Part shown: positions 19,220 through 51,511 of the stretch, piece by piece
Layout: every line of letters begins with the position of its first letter
Position numbering within the stretch: position 1 is the first letter of the stretch
Translations under genes and position numbers: made by a program
NCBI RefSeq assembly: GCF_009649955.1
Contig: NZ_CP045875.1
Location: 2,984,001-3,048,000, forward strand
Reading direction: 5' to 3'
Length of the DNA: 64,000 nt
Source: Heliorestis convoluta
GTDB taxonomy: Bacteria; Bacillota; Desulfitobacteriia; Heliobacteriales; Heliobacteriaceae
The notes under the pieces: model-generated
Told to the model about the DNA's origin: nothing
Seen by the model: the letters and a program-made list of their open reading frames with translations, nothing else
The model's database searches: none

Positions 19220-19295
19220 TGGCTCCTCGAGTAGGACTCGAACCTACAACCTACCGGTTAACAGCCGGTTGCTCTACCGATTGAGCTATCGAGGA
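19220..19295 (-). tRNA. tRNA-Asn (GTT)
   Basis: 76 nt with encoded CCA. Acceptor TCCTCGA/TCGAGGA, anticodon GTT in CTGTTAA, standard TTCGAGT T-loop. It lies about 35 nt downstream of the 16S fragment, in the place where the end of a normal rRNA operon would be. Confidence 0.96.
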
Positions 19296-19330
19296 ATATT
19301 GTTTTAGCTCAATGATTCTTTTCAGAGTAT

Positions 19331-19550
19331 ATTGCTCCTTTGGTTGTCCCATGATGCCATAGAACAACTTTATGCGGTATTAGCTCTCCTTTCGGAAAGT
19401 TATCCCCCTCTTATAGGTAGGTTATCCACGCGTTACTCACCCGTTCGCCACTAAGTCTTGGAATAGCAAGCTATCCCTTAACTCCGTTCGACTTGCATGT
19501 GTTAGGCATGCCGCCAGCGTTCGTCCTGAGCCAGGATCAAACTCTCCAAA
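19331..19550 (-). rRNA. 16S rRNA, 5' fragment only (~220 nt)
   Basis: The minus strand reads GAGAGTTTGATCCTGGCTC, then the GACGAACGCTGGCGGC and CATGCAAGTCGAACGG regions, GGCGAACGGGTGAGTAACGC and the AATACCGCATAAAG region into the V2 helix. Homology ends around 19331, after AAAGGAGCAAT. The remaining ~1,300 nt of 16S, all of 23S and 5S are absent before tRNA-Asn. It keeps a normal promoter and leader. Either a real deletion leaving a transcribed 16S stub, or an assembly collapse of an rrn operon. Confidence 0.9.
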
Positions 19551-20328: not shown

Positions 20329-20520
20329 ATTGCATTTACAATAGGCCAAAACGCAGTCACAACCAGCAAAATGTATCTGGGTCAGGTGTTATGACTTCCT
20401 GGAGAGAGGACTTCAGACCTCAGCCATCGGCAGCTTGCTGCCGCTCATGGCGTGGGATGAGTCCGTTCGGAAGGAAATCATAACGCCTGACCCCACCACA
20501 GGGTAGCTATTTTCGTGTTA
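20329..20520 (+). repeat. Extended repeat unit, copy A
   Basis: The 115-nt structured core (20379-20493) lies inside a longer unit shared with copy B. The left flank shares CAGTCACAACCAGCAAAATG and a CAATAGG block; the right flank shares CACCACA and CTATTTTC. Because similarity extends past the hairpin on both sides, the repeating unit is about 190 bp, not just the stem-loop. Confidence 0.75.
20379..20493 (+). ncRNA. 115-nt structured element, copy A
   Basis: Arms GGGTCAGGTGTTATGACTTC.. and the complementary ..GGAAATCATAACGCCTGACC pair over 21 positions with one mismatch and one G-T. Inside, GGACT/AGTCC, GCCAT/ATGGC and CGGCAGC-TT-GCTGCCG stems enclose the conserved strands GACCTC and GTGGGA. 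Same length as copies at 37596 and 51348, with compensatory changes in several stems. Plus orientation, about 500 nt upstream of the AOR gene. The ncRNA type is an inference; it could be a DNA-level mobile hairpin. Confidence 0.6.
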
Positions 20521-20629
20521 ACCCCTCATGCCCGTCCGGACACAACCAGATATAAAAATTCTATTTTGTGTTAAGTAACTGAAAACTCTGAACACCTATT
20601 CATTTTTCGACCCAAACATGATAAAATCA

Positions 20630-37559: not shown

Positions 37560-37759
37560 GATAACATGAAAATAGTCAATTGGTACTTTGTGGTGGGGTC
37601 AGGCCTTATTCATTCCTTCCGAACGGACTCATCCCACGCCATAGGCGGCAGCAAGCTGCCGATGGCTGAGGTCTGAAGTCCTCTCTCCAGGAATGAATAA
37701 GGCCTGACCCAGGTACATTTTGCTGGTTGTGACTGGGTTATGACCTATTGCAAATACAG
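37560..37759 (-). repeat. Extended repeat unit, copy B
   Basis: Longer unit around the 115-nt element; the flanks match copy A on both sides (CAGTCACAACCAGCAAAATG on the left, CACCACA and CTATTTTC on the right, read on the minus strand). Confidence 0.75.
37596..37710 (-). ncRNA. 115-nt structured element, copy B
   Basis: Perfect 21-bp complementary arms (GGGTCAGGCCTTATTCATTC.. and ..GAATGAATAAGGCCTGACCC). On the minus strand the core is nearly identical to copy A, while arm positions 9-18 differ from A on both strands in a compensating way. Same orientation as secA and 78 nt upstream of its start, in the hpf-secA interval. Confidence 0.6.
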
Positions 37760-37823
37760 GCAGTTAGATTTTATTATTGTACCATTCGCTGTAAGCGGGT
37801 GCAATGTGATGGCGAAAGGCTGC

Positions 37824-49169: not shown

Positions 49170-50819
49170 CCCAATAGCCTTGCATCAAAGTAAAAAAATA
49201 CAAAAAAATCTATTAGCAACCTGTGATTTTTTCGTTGGATACAAGTCGACCGAAGGAAGATATCCCTTCGGTCTTTTTTTCTCTAACGATAGGTCTGATT
49301 CAATACCACGAACTAAAGAAGAAAATGAGAATACTTTACTTTTAACCCTGTAAAATTTTTCTTTATTAATAAAAAGCCAATAACATATCAAAGCCCCTGG
49401 TTCCCATTTTTTGCTTTTATTTGTTTTGTATATTGGCTAAATATTTTTGCTTTTTATCTTGCCCTTTTATTTTCGCAACTGTACCTGGAAATTTAACTAG
49501 CTTCTTCTTTTTATCGGGGACTTTTTGTCTACCTTTTGATGTTTTTTGGGGTTTGCTATATAACTCTTCAATAAACTCTCCCCAAGTTTTATAGAAATAA
49601 ACACGTAGCAAGGTTAGTACTTGCTGATGTGTCTTATTCGTTTTCATTTTTAATTTTACAATTAGAGAAAGTCCATATGCGATAAGGGCAATAAACATAT
49701 GATTCCATATTCCCTGAGGTTCTGTGCTTCTTATTATGGACAATTTCAAATTCTGTTTTATCCATTTGAAAAATGTTTCTACCATCCAGCGATTTTTATA
49801 TATGTCCATAATTTCTTCTTCTGATAAATCCCAACGTGTTGTTACAATACGATAGATGCTTCCTTTTTCATTGATAAACTCTACAAGGCGAAATGCTTCG
49901 TCTGATGTACTAAATTTTATTTTGGCACTTTTTGATACATGCGTACAAGTCGGTTTATATTCTTCTAAGACTTTAAATGTATACTGGGTTTTGATTCGAA
50001 CTACAAAAGATATGTCATCTTTTTGCCACTTCGCCATTCTTTTTGTACATCCATAGCCCCGATCCATTACGTATGTGACGTCAGCTTTTTCTATCAGTTC
50101 GTCTGAACCTTCAAAGTCGCTTACATTGCCTGTAGAAGGCAGTATTTTATCCGGATAGGCTGTGTCTGGCGATGCTACAATGAGTCGAGTATGCATTTTT
50201 ACTACATTCCATCCCTTTGTAACATAGGCCCAGTCGCATATATTTTCCGGTAATTTTAGATGGGTGGCATCAAGAATGCTTAGTATACCAATTCTTTTTG
50301 ATAATCCTTTTGAATGTTGTGTCAGCGTTCGAAGCATTTCCACGACCATTGTATATAAATCTCGAAGTAATTCCGTAGGTAATGCGTTAATTCGTCGACT
50401 TAATTGAGAGCCACTAAACGTTTCTATTCCAAATACTTTACAAAGTTCAGGATTGGCCTTCAATCTTTTCTCTATTTCTGTGTAAGATCGCCAGCCATCA
50501 AGCTGAGCAGCAACAAAAATTTTAATAAGTCCATCGGTATCAAGTTTATCATATTCATAATTTAACAAAGGGCATTTGTACTGTTCCATGGGAAGCATCG
50601 ATAAGCATTGACGTATGACCATTTTCTGTTTTATACTTATGTTATTCAATTTTTGGAACTCCTTTGTAGAAAGACTTGTTGGTGTTGGGAACCGAACAAG
50701 GTCTACTCTTTCTACAATAGGAGTTTTTTTCATTTTGTAAAGAGTTTTTTTGAAAACAGCTCTTTTTTACTTTATTTTGAATAAAAGTAATCTTTTCCTA
50801 CTCGTGCAAGGCTACTGGG
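49170..50819 (-). mobile_element. Intact IS4-family insertion sequence (~1,650 bp)
   Basis: Terminal inverted repeats CCCAATAGCCTTGCA (left, 49170) and CCCAGTAGCCTTGCA (right, complement ending at 50819), flanked by ACGTA on both sides (49165-49169 and 50820-50824), the apparent 5-bp target duplication. Contains one full transposase. A terminator-like hairpin GACCGAAGG/CCTTCGGTC with a T run (49248-49280) lies in its left part. Confidence 0.85.
49417..50733 (-). CDS. IS4-family transposase
   Basis: 438 aa DDE transposase. Catalytic Asp in SILDATHLKL, second in YVMDRGYGC, and the YREK signature in YKNRWMVETFFKWIKQNLKL (Y-x2-R-x3-E-x6-K), typical of IS4-family elements. The N-terminal helical region holds the DNA-binding domain; the C-terminus is lysine-rich. 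Intact frame with ATG 50733, so the element may still move. Confidence 0.92.
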   Translation of the reverse strand: MKKTPIVERVDLVRFPTPTSLSTKEFQKLNNISIKQKMVIRQCLSMLPMEQYKCPLLNYEYDKLDTDGLIKIFVAAQLDGWRSYTEIEKRLKANPELCKVFGIETFSGSQLSRRINALPTELLRDLYTMVVEMLRTLTQHSKGLSKRIGILSILDATHLKLPENICDWAYVTKGWNVVKMHTRLIVASPDTAYPDKILPSTGNVSDFEGSDELIEKADVTYVMDRGYGCTKRMAKWQKDDISFVVRIKTQYTFKVLEEYKPTCTHVSKSAKIKFSTSDEAFRLVEFINEKGSIYRIVTTRWDLSEEEIMDIYKNRWMVETFFKWIKQNLKLSIIRSTEPQGIWNHMFIALIAYGLSLIVKLKMKTNKTHQQVLTLLRVYFYKTWGEFIEELYSKPQKTSKGRQKVPDKKKKLVKFPGTVAKIKGQDKKQKYLANIQNK

Positions 50820-51057: not shown

Positions 51058-51242
51058 TTTGGAGAGTTTGATCCTGGCTCAGGACGAACGCTGGCGGCAT
51101 GCCTAACACATGCAAGTCGAACGGAGTTAAGGGATAGCTTGCTATTCCAAGACTTAGTGGCGAACGGGTGAGTAACGCGTGGATAACCTACCTATAAGAG
51201 GGGGATAACGTTTCCGAAAGGAGAGCTAATACCGCATAAAGT
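51058..51242 (+). rRNA. 16S rRNA, 5' fragment only (~185 nt)
   Basis: GAGAGTTTGATCCTGGCTC through the ATACCGCATAAAG region, nearly identical to the fragment at 19331-19550 but on the opposite strand; it breaks off about 35 nt earlier. Downstream sequence is the repeat unit C, not rRNA. Confidence 0.9.
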
Positions 51243-51255
51243 CTGAGTTTCGGCC

Positions 51256-51480
51256 TATTGCATTGCAAATACAATAGGTAGTTGCGTATATAGCAGAAAG
51301 TTTCGCCAAGCAAGGTCAAAGGGAGTAACAATCGGCAAAAACTCTCTGGGACTGGGCATCACGCTTTCCGGAGCGGGACTTGGGACCTCAGCTGTCGCCA
51401 GCTTGCTGGCGGTAACAGCGTGGGACCAGTCCAGAGCGGAGGAAAGCGTGATGACCAGTCCCCTGCAAGAAGTAACCCCA
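51256..51480 (+). repeat. Extended repeat unit, copy C
   Basis: Starts with CCTATTG-CATTGCAAATA-CAATAGG, whose last part (TTGCA..TACAATAGG) also begins copy A. It directly abuts the end of the 16S fragment and carries the 115-nt element at 51348-51462. Confidence 0.6.
51348..51462 (+). ncRNA. 115-nt structured element, copy C
   Basis: Arms GGGACTGGGCATCACGCTTT.. / ..AAAGCGTGATGACCAGTCCC pair at 21 of 22 positions but are unlike the arms of A and B. The core keeps GGACTT, GACCTCAGC, GCTTGCTG, GCGTGGGA and AGTCC, with paired substitutions (CGCCAGC/GCTGGCG; GCTGT/ACAGC; TGG/CCA). Plus orientation, 144 nt before the spoVAD start. Confidence 0.6.
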
Positions 51481-51511
51481 ACGTAATCGAACATGGCACA
51501 GGGTATTTCGT

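Follow-up and report, generated by a model that had tools for sequence, protein, structure and literature searches.

A dispersed hairpin repeat with covarying stems and a fixed loop core in heliobacteria

Structured bacterial repeats and the heliobacterial hairpin

Repeats of the BOX, RUP and ERIC types, as well as MITEs, are non-autonomous, dispersed and modular, and are foldable when transcribed. The repeat bcr1 is lineage-specific and about 150 bp long, with a conserved predicted structure and the behaviour of a mobile element, and we know of no twin-hairpin unit or rRNA-trailer location for it. bcr1 has been listed as a repeat of the Bacillus cereus group (PMC2267715), and BOX, RUP and ERIC-type structured repeats and MITEs are treated in two other articles (PMC2229807, PMC3049150). 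In Neisseria, the Correia repeat enclosed element (CREE/NEMIS) is found in 100 or more dispersed, mobile copies, many of them 5' of genes; its inverted-repeat ends give rise to mRNA hairpins that bind RNase III, and it can sit between a promoter and a gene (PMC2649163). Furthermore, the IVS of bacterial 23S rRNA are described as hairpin insertions that are tolerated in rRNA transcripts and are often RNase III sites (PMC4990558).

The DNA analysed here, called the window, is a stretch of 64,000 nt (positions 2984001-3048000) of the 3,218,981-bp chromosome of Heliorestis convoluta HH-T. It holds three 115-nt hairpins, which an earlier reading of the letters (the original prediction) had placed at the correct coordinates and on the correct strands, and the paired stem changes quoted with them are present in the sequences. 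They were regarded as a family of three; they are indeed homologous, but represent two paralogues, hairpin A (W1 at 20379-20493, plus strand; W2 at 37596-37710, minus strand) and hairpin B (W3 at 51348-51462, plus strand). A covariance model search of the full genome and of relatives, which had been proposed as a check, gave 149 matches on the H. convoluta chromosome and few positive relatives, and a nucleotide search gave at least 40 among the matches listed. The set analysed comprises 147 hairpins, 75 A and 72 B, in 86 clusters, so that many near-identical non-coding copies are present in one genome, as in MITE-like families.

These hairpins are a previously uncatalogued repeat. The contrary explanation, that they are palindromes by chance or members of a family already catalogued, has next to no probability: the copy number of about 150 and the 0 of 20,000 permutations that match rule out chance, and the hairpin has no match among viral, phage or plasmid sequences, an origin that is rejected accordingly. 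A match to a known Rfam family would have counted against the original prediction; in Rfam 15 the hairpins of every lineage tested reached no family at the gathering threshold, and only noise appeared at E up to 10. In the accessible text of the H. convoluta genome paper, the word 'repeat' is confined to a reference title and to one row of a CRISPR table, and 'intergenic' does not occur, so no mention of the hairpin element was found in that text (PMC7143216). An uncatalogued repeat is thereby added to the only phototrophic Firmicutes.

The heliobacterial hairpin resembles CREE in its dispersed copies, hairpin formation and promoter–gene position; however, CREE is a single unit of up to ~157 bp with 26-bp repeat ends, whereas the heliobacterial hairpin has free arms, a fixed internal-loop core and two hairpins head to head. 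Like bcr1 it is lineage-specific, structured and mobile in behaviour, but no sequence relation is expected, and class-wide and 85,000-species searches matched heliobacteria only. With BOX, RUP, ERIC and MITEs it shares a non-autonomous, dispersed, modular and foldable character, although its sequence and architecture are different and its helices mostly covary between species. The hairpins in heliobacterial rRNA trailers are, similarly to 23S IVS, insertions tolerated in an rRNA transcript. Unlike IVS, which lie inside the mature 23S coding region, they stand after the 23S 3' end, in the 3' trailer; they are also dispersed beyond rRNA operons and carry no ORF. RAYT-associated REP/BIME likewise have paired hairpins in opposite orientation with short REP-like hairpins alongside, but the heliobacterial hairpins measure 115 nt as opposed to 20-40 nt, and no RAYT partner was found. 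It is reasonable to liken this lineage-restricted repeat, with its unusually elaborate and well-kept fold, to CREE or bcr1.

Architecture of the unit and its copies in the window

The predicted 115-nt hairpin is real, but it is one part of a larger element, of which the window copies are halves. Hairpins are divergent, on opposite strands, in 59 of the 86 clusters and convergent in none (0/86), and the start-to-start distance in the divergent clusters is 235-258 nt in 58 cases and 117 nt in one. The complete unit of ~420 nt (B'–~130-nt spacer–A) is itself an inverted pair; its full order is a REP-like hairpin (CATGCCCGGTTGGGCACAACC), a tail, reversed hairpin B, the spacer, hairpin A and the tail CACCACAGGGTAGCTATTTTCGTGTTA, often followed by a second REP-like hairpin. 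The spacer carries an imperfect palindrome (CTATTGTATTTGCAATGCAATAG). A and B have upstream letters in common (AGTnACAAyCAGCAA...TCTGGG), so the unit probably arose when a single ancestral hairpin was duplicated in inverted orientation together with its flank. Each hairpin, ~115 nt long, has outer arms of ~21-22 bp of free sequence, two inner stems, a CUUG-type cap and a fixed internal-loop core, GGRCU..GACCUCAG / GCGUGGGA..AGYCC. An autonomous, gene-bearing version was rejected, since a gene cannot fit between hairpins spaced 117-258 nt start to start, and no gene was seen between the hairpins of any copy. After the element, the right tails of L120, L147, L172 and L174 contain a sequence like GCGTGGCAAACGAAACGTCCCCGTGACACG, which looks like a separate REP-type repeat.

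Each of the three window hairpins folds as a single long hairpin, with z-scores of -9.7, -10.4 and -8.7 for W1, W2 and W3 and 0 of 200 shuffles as stable. All are half-units: W1 and W2 have no B' half, and W3 has no A half and is joined to a truncated piece of 16S rRNA. W1 (fold -70.8 kcal/mol) stands before an aldehyde ferredoxin oxidoreductase gene and has 97-99% identity to tens of other A copies among the matches listed. Compared with complete-unit spacers, 20330-20378 (plus) is its right spacer part (ATTGCATTTACAATAGGCC...CAGTCACAACCAGCAAAATGTATCT); its right tail, of the sequence common to most complete units, lies at 20494-20562 (plus) together with a short REP-like hairpin (CATGCCCGTCCGGACACAACC) that occurs mostly beside the hairpin element. 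W2 (-77.4 kcal/mol) is in the secA 5' leader, on the start codon side of a promoter-like sequence and before the start. Its arms are the alternative haplotype CCTTATTCA/TGAATAAGG, and by sequence comparison it is flanked by a right spacer part (37711-37765, minus) and a right tail (CACCACAAAGTACCAATTGACTATTTTCATGTTA; 37561-37595, minus).

W3 (-75.8 kcal/mol) precedes spoVAD and forms one subfamily with 71 other B hairpins. Its B-side tail (CTGCAAGAAGTAACCCCAACGTAATCGAA; 51463-51491, plus) corresponds to the left ends seen in complete units, and its spacer (51243-51347, plus; locus L194), the reverse of the consensus orientation, is cut off at CTGAGTTT against the truncated 16S rRNA 5' fragment (51062-51242, plus). 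This fragment lies outside the element and marks a deletion joint; its first ~180 nt are those of a 16S fragment at 19244-19550. In that part of the window, a 16S rRNA 5' fragment of ~200 nt (19223-19550, minus) runs straight into tRNA-Asn, and because tRNA-Asn follows 23S in L076, the region has the look of an rRNA operon of which only the 16S start and the tRNA are left. The window also holds a DDE transposase gene (49417-50733). All three hairpins are oriented like the downstream gene, as had been claimed (AOR, SecA and SpoVAD, confirmed with Pfam), but this is uninformative because the complete element has one hairpin on each strand.

Covariation, conservation and distribution

The structure of the covariance model (R2) was written by hand. 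Standard pairs fill 95.8% of the pair cells in an alignment of 85 distinct sequences, compared to 76.2% with the 3' letters shuffled and at most 46% with partners slid, and both sides change in 31 of 41 pairs; in relatives alone, 93.7% are paired against 68.7% when shuffled. As the covariation alignment was already fitted to the structure, an independent arm-swap test was made, and the duplex energy sum of the hairpins' own arms was reached in 0 of 20,000 between-hairpin swaps, overall and within each of three lineages. Covariation is therefore well above background, and the proposed selection on (or maintenance of) a folded structure is strongly supported. That the arms pair in every copy is correct for the three window copies but not genome-wide: the outermost arm of B is often mispaired (pair 4 is A.G in 9/36 and pair 6 is U.U in 11/36 distinct copies), and an arm hybrid is present in L130.

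The unchanging parts are the loop core GACCUCAG and GCGUGGGA, with rare exceptions, and most of helices 3 and 4, the core letters being identical across two genera whose arms share nothing. Stems of free sequence that enclose a fixed loop core suggest that it is the fold that is preserved and not the sequence of the DNA duplex. Drift of RNA stems is commonly taken to pass through G·U pairs, and template switching has been described as re-matching rRNA stems (PMC8794818). Among 1752 arm cells, 1627 are Watson-Crick, 22 G.U, 16 A.C and 87 others; the wobble-tolerant, strand-specific pairing of structured RNAs is thus not seen as a G.U excess over A.C, in what is a weak test given few independent events. 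The A arm haplotypes CGTTATGAC, CCTTATTCA, CGTTTATAA, CTTTTTAA and CGTTTATCA each have their own matching partner, and arms are replaced over several pairs with few one-sided intermediates. Together with the absence of wobble bias, these replacements suggest that the arms were partly re-matched by copying in DNA, in few independent events. An apical variant (GTATCAGTAGC/GCATCAGTAGC or CCTTTCACGCAGC) recurs in the B hairpins of L123, L127, L146, L168 and L195 and the A hairpins of L127, L129, L167 and L199; in it, one side of the inner stem is replaced and the partner side is unchanged.

Conservation was also followed copy by copy. In 58 complete units, private substitutions total 10 over 144 hairpin-core sites vs 62 over 130 spacer sites (p about 1e-11), making them ~7-fold rarer in the core, and since private changes are mostly post-insertion, the cores are kept, or reset, in individual copies. 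Pairs of copies differ on average by 1.6-2.1% in their cores, by about 6% in the arms, by 12% in the spacer and by 16% in the tails. The step at the hairpin edges is abrupt, and a graded conversion tract is rejected on account of this sharp boundary. Ascertainment by the model is an unlikely explanation of core conservation, as considerably more altered hairpins are still scored by the model well above its threshold. The hybrids L130, L165 and L189 reflect recombination between copies, L165 being a half-A/half-B fusion at the apex, and the whole or partial hairpin losses in L119, L166, L121 and L151 are consistent with deletion. A homing insert, which would leave empty A-sites inside units, was considered and gave no clean example.

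Empty sites in relatives, another proposed check, were found at both of the orthologous sites compared between the two Heliorestis species: the secA leader is filled by W2 in H. convoluta and empty in H. acidaminivorans, and the glyA-upp site is filled in H. acidaminivorans and empty in H. convoluta. Likewise, some rRNA trailers of Heliobacterium chlorum and Heliobacterium mobile are filled and some are empty. In a reading of the listed ends, about 15 of 22 units with clear boundaries carry TA at either side, the TA possibly being the element's own; this hints at an enzyme that targets TA, without proving it. A Y1 transposase or RAYT partner was looked for as the mobilising enzyme and rejected: H. 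convoluta, for which 18 transposases are reported (PMC7143216), has one Y1 transposase, inside an IS605-type element with ends unrelated to the hairpin, and the H. chlorum and H. mobile genomes have none, so that a Y1 (HUH) enzyme does not accompany the hairpin as in IS200/IS605 or RAYT-REP systems.

Nine heliobacterial genomes were searched with the model, as were 83 from the class as a whole, heliobacteria among them; the hairpin was present in only four of the 83, all heliobacterial, and the model found none in the other 79. A core-pattern scan of one genome per species in ~85,000 species, from which the H. convoluta genome itself may be left out, matched only H. acidaminivorans, H. chlorum and H. 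mobile. In H. acidaminivorans there are ~13 copies, all single intergenic hairpins (16 R2 matches, some of them on the reverse strand of a hairpin already counted). H. chlorum and H. mobile have five each, at loci that are orthologous by flank comparison (the L049/L042 score of 88 is weak, yet the best of L049), and the hairpin is therefore not always transient. Four of the five, all in rRNA sense, stand after the 3' end of mature 23S and before CTCTGTGTAGTTTTC, a conserved strand of the trailer; the fifth is beside a decayed rRNA operon. At the equivalent trailer spot the hairpin is not in the other rRNA operons of these two species, and it was not found in the other heliobacterial genera tested. 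At the fifth locus, H. mobile (L050) retains the hairpin and a 23S 3' remnant joined to an apparent piece of a group II intron, and the H. chlorum ortholog (L041) retains only the hairpin and trailer.

Interpretation and neighbouring elements

The repeat is probably a heliobacteria-specific, non-autonomous, MITE-like dispersed element whose folded form is constrained. What is shown directly is its sequence and copy number, the divergent arrangement, the covariation, the conserved core and the presence or absence of copies between species. Two diverged hairpins (B' and A) would have been joined head to head around the palindromic spacer in H. convoluta, and the unit, or its halves, would then have spread to ~86 places, presumably by DNA transposition with proteins supplied from elsewhere and with the folded form as what is recognised. 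Arm complementarity is probably kept in part by arm-to-arm DNA copying (template switching) and in part because copies that fail to fold are selected against. Transcribed copies, as in the secA leader or the rRNA trailers, would fold into a long stem of double-stranded RNA that is likely to be cut by RNase III, and transcripts would thereby tolerate the insertion. The mobile hairpin that the original prediction gave as its alternative fits the dispersal, the ~150 copies and the filled and empty sites, but plain mobility with homogenisation does not easily explain why, in individual copies, the core and inner stems are far better conserved than other parts of the element. Homogenisation without selection on structure, by gene conversion between dispersed copies (following palindrome breaks) and arm-to-arm template switching, has a published mechanism (PMC8794818) and agrees with the multi-pair arm replacements and the between-copy hybrids; it is nevertheless highly doubtful, as conservation drops sharply where the hairpin ends, with no gradual fall-off, and core letters persist across two genera with unrelated arms.

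The original prediction had preferred a new ncRNA or cis-element class, against which the inconsistent gene orientation speaks: in H. acidaminivorans eight of 13 hairpins are read as sense and five as antisense, L217 (between divergent genes) being in neither group, and an orientation bias is rejected as none is clear. In its fuller form, a functional structured RNA would be an ancestral part of the heliobacterial 23S rRNA 3' trailer, secondarily multiplied in Heliorestis, with a core binding a protein of rRNA or mRNA processing. This is unlikely, even though the loop strands are invariant, nearly all helices covary, the trailer hairpins are orthologous and in sense, H. convoluta copies keep the core while their own spacer drifts, and the secA copy follows a promoter-like sequence; against it stand the rRNA operons and genera with no hairpin, the mixed orientation and the arms with no wobble excess. 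It is similarly improbable that a heliobacterial RNA class, its core binding an RNA-processing factor, arose in the rRNA 3' trailer and then became a mobile twin hairpin with stems evolving by template switching. If an RNA class were true, a processing site would be placed in tens of H. convoluta loci, which would form a natural laboratory for simultaneous two-sided stem change. Recognition as folded single-stranded DNA or a cruciform, as a transposon end or chromosome-structure site, is quite unlikely. Each strand forms a stable DNA fold (-31 to -41 kcal/mol), the arms show no wobble bias, and hairpin-tip deletions and the L165 fusion fit cruciform-type events, but no Y1 (HUH) enzyme is common to all four species, and the inner stems and loops are bigger and more elaborate than in any Y1-recognised ends known to us.

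With ~150 copies in one genome, free arms and a frozen core, the repeat can separate two normally confounded causes of covariation, selection on the fold and DNA-level copying from one arm to the other. It is also a warning that, in multicopy palindromic repeats, strong covariation statistics are no proof of RNA function by themselves.

Several observations concern the rRNA surroundings. Trailer copies standing after 23S raised a 5S rRNA identity, which was rejected, the 5S model having no match at the hairpins. The 5S rRNA is apparently ~3 kb upstream of the 23S 3' end, between 16S and 23S, in L064 and L070 of H. convoluta (C1:781576-782074) and in L063, L069 and L072 of genome G005; two 5S copies were found in the former and five in the latter, vs ~10 23S 3' ends each. 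In H. acidaminivorans, the 23S trailers L078 and L102 carry a different hairpin insert (GGAATTGT.TGGGGGTCAGACCCCAAGACAATTTCC) at the equivalent spot, which may therefore be a hot spot for hairpin insertions. In the same species, the hairpin of L214 (2002-2115) lies ~220 nt upstream of an OLE RNA (2338-2952; RF01071, 523 bits).
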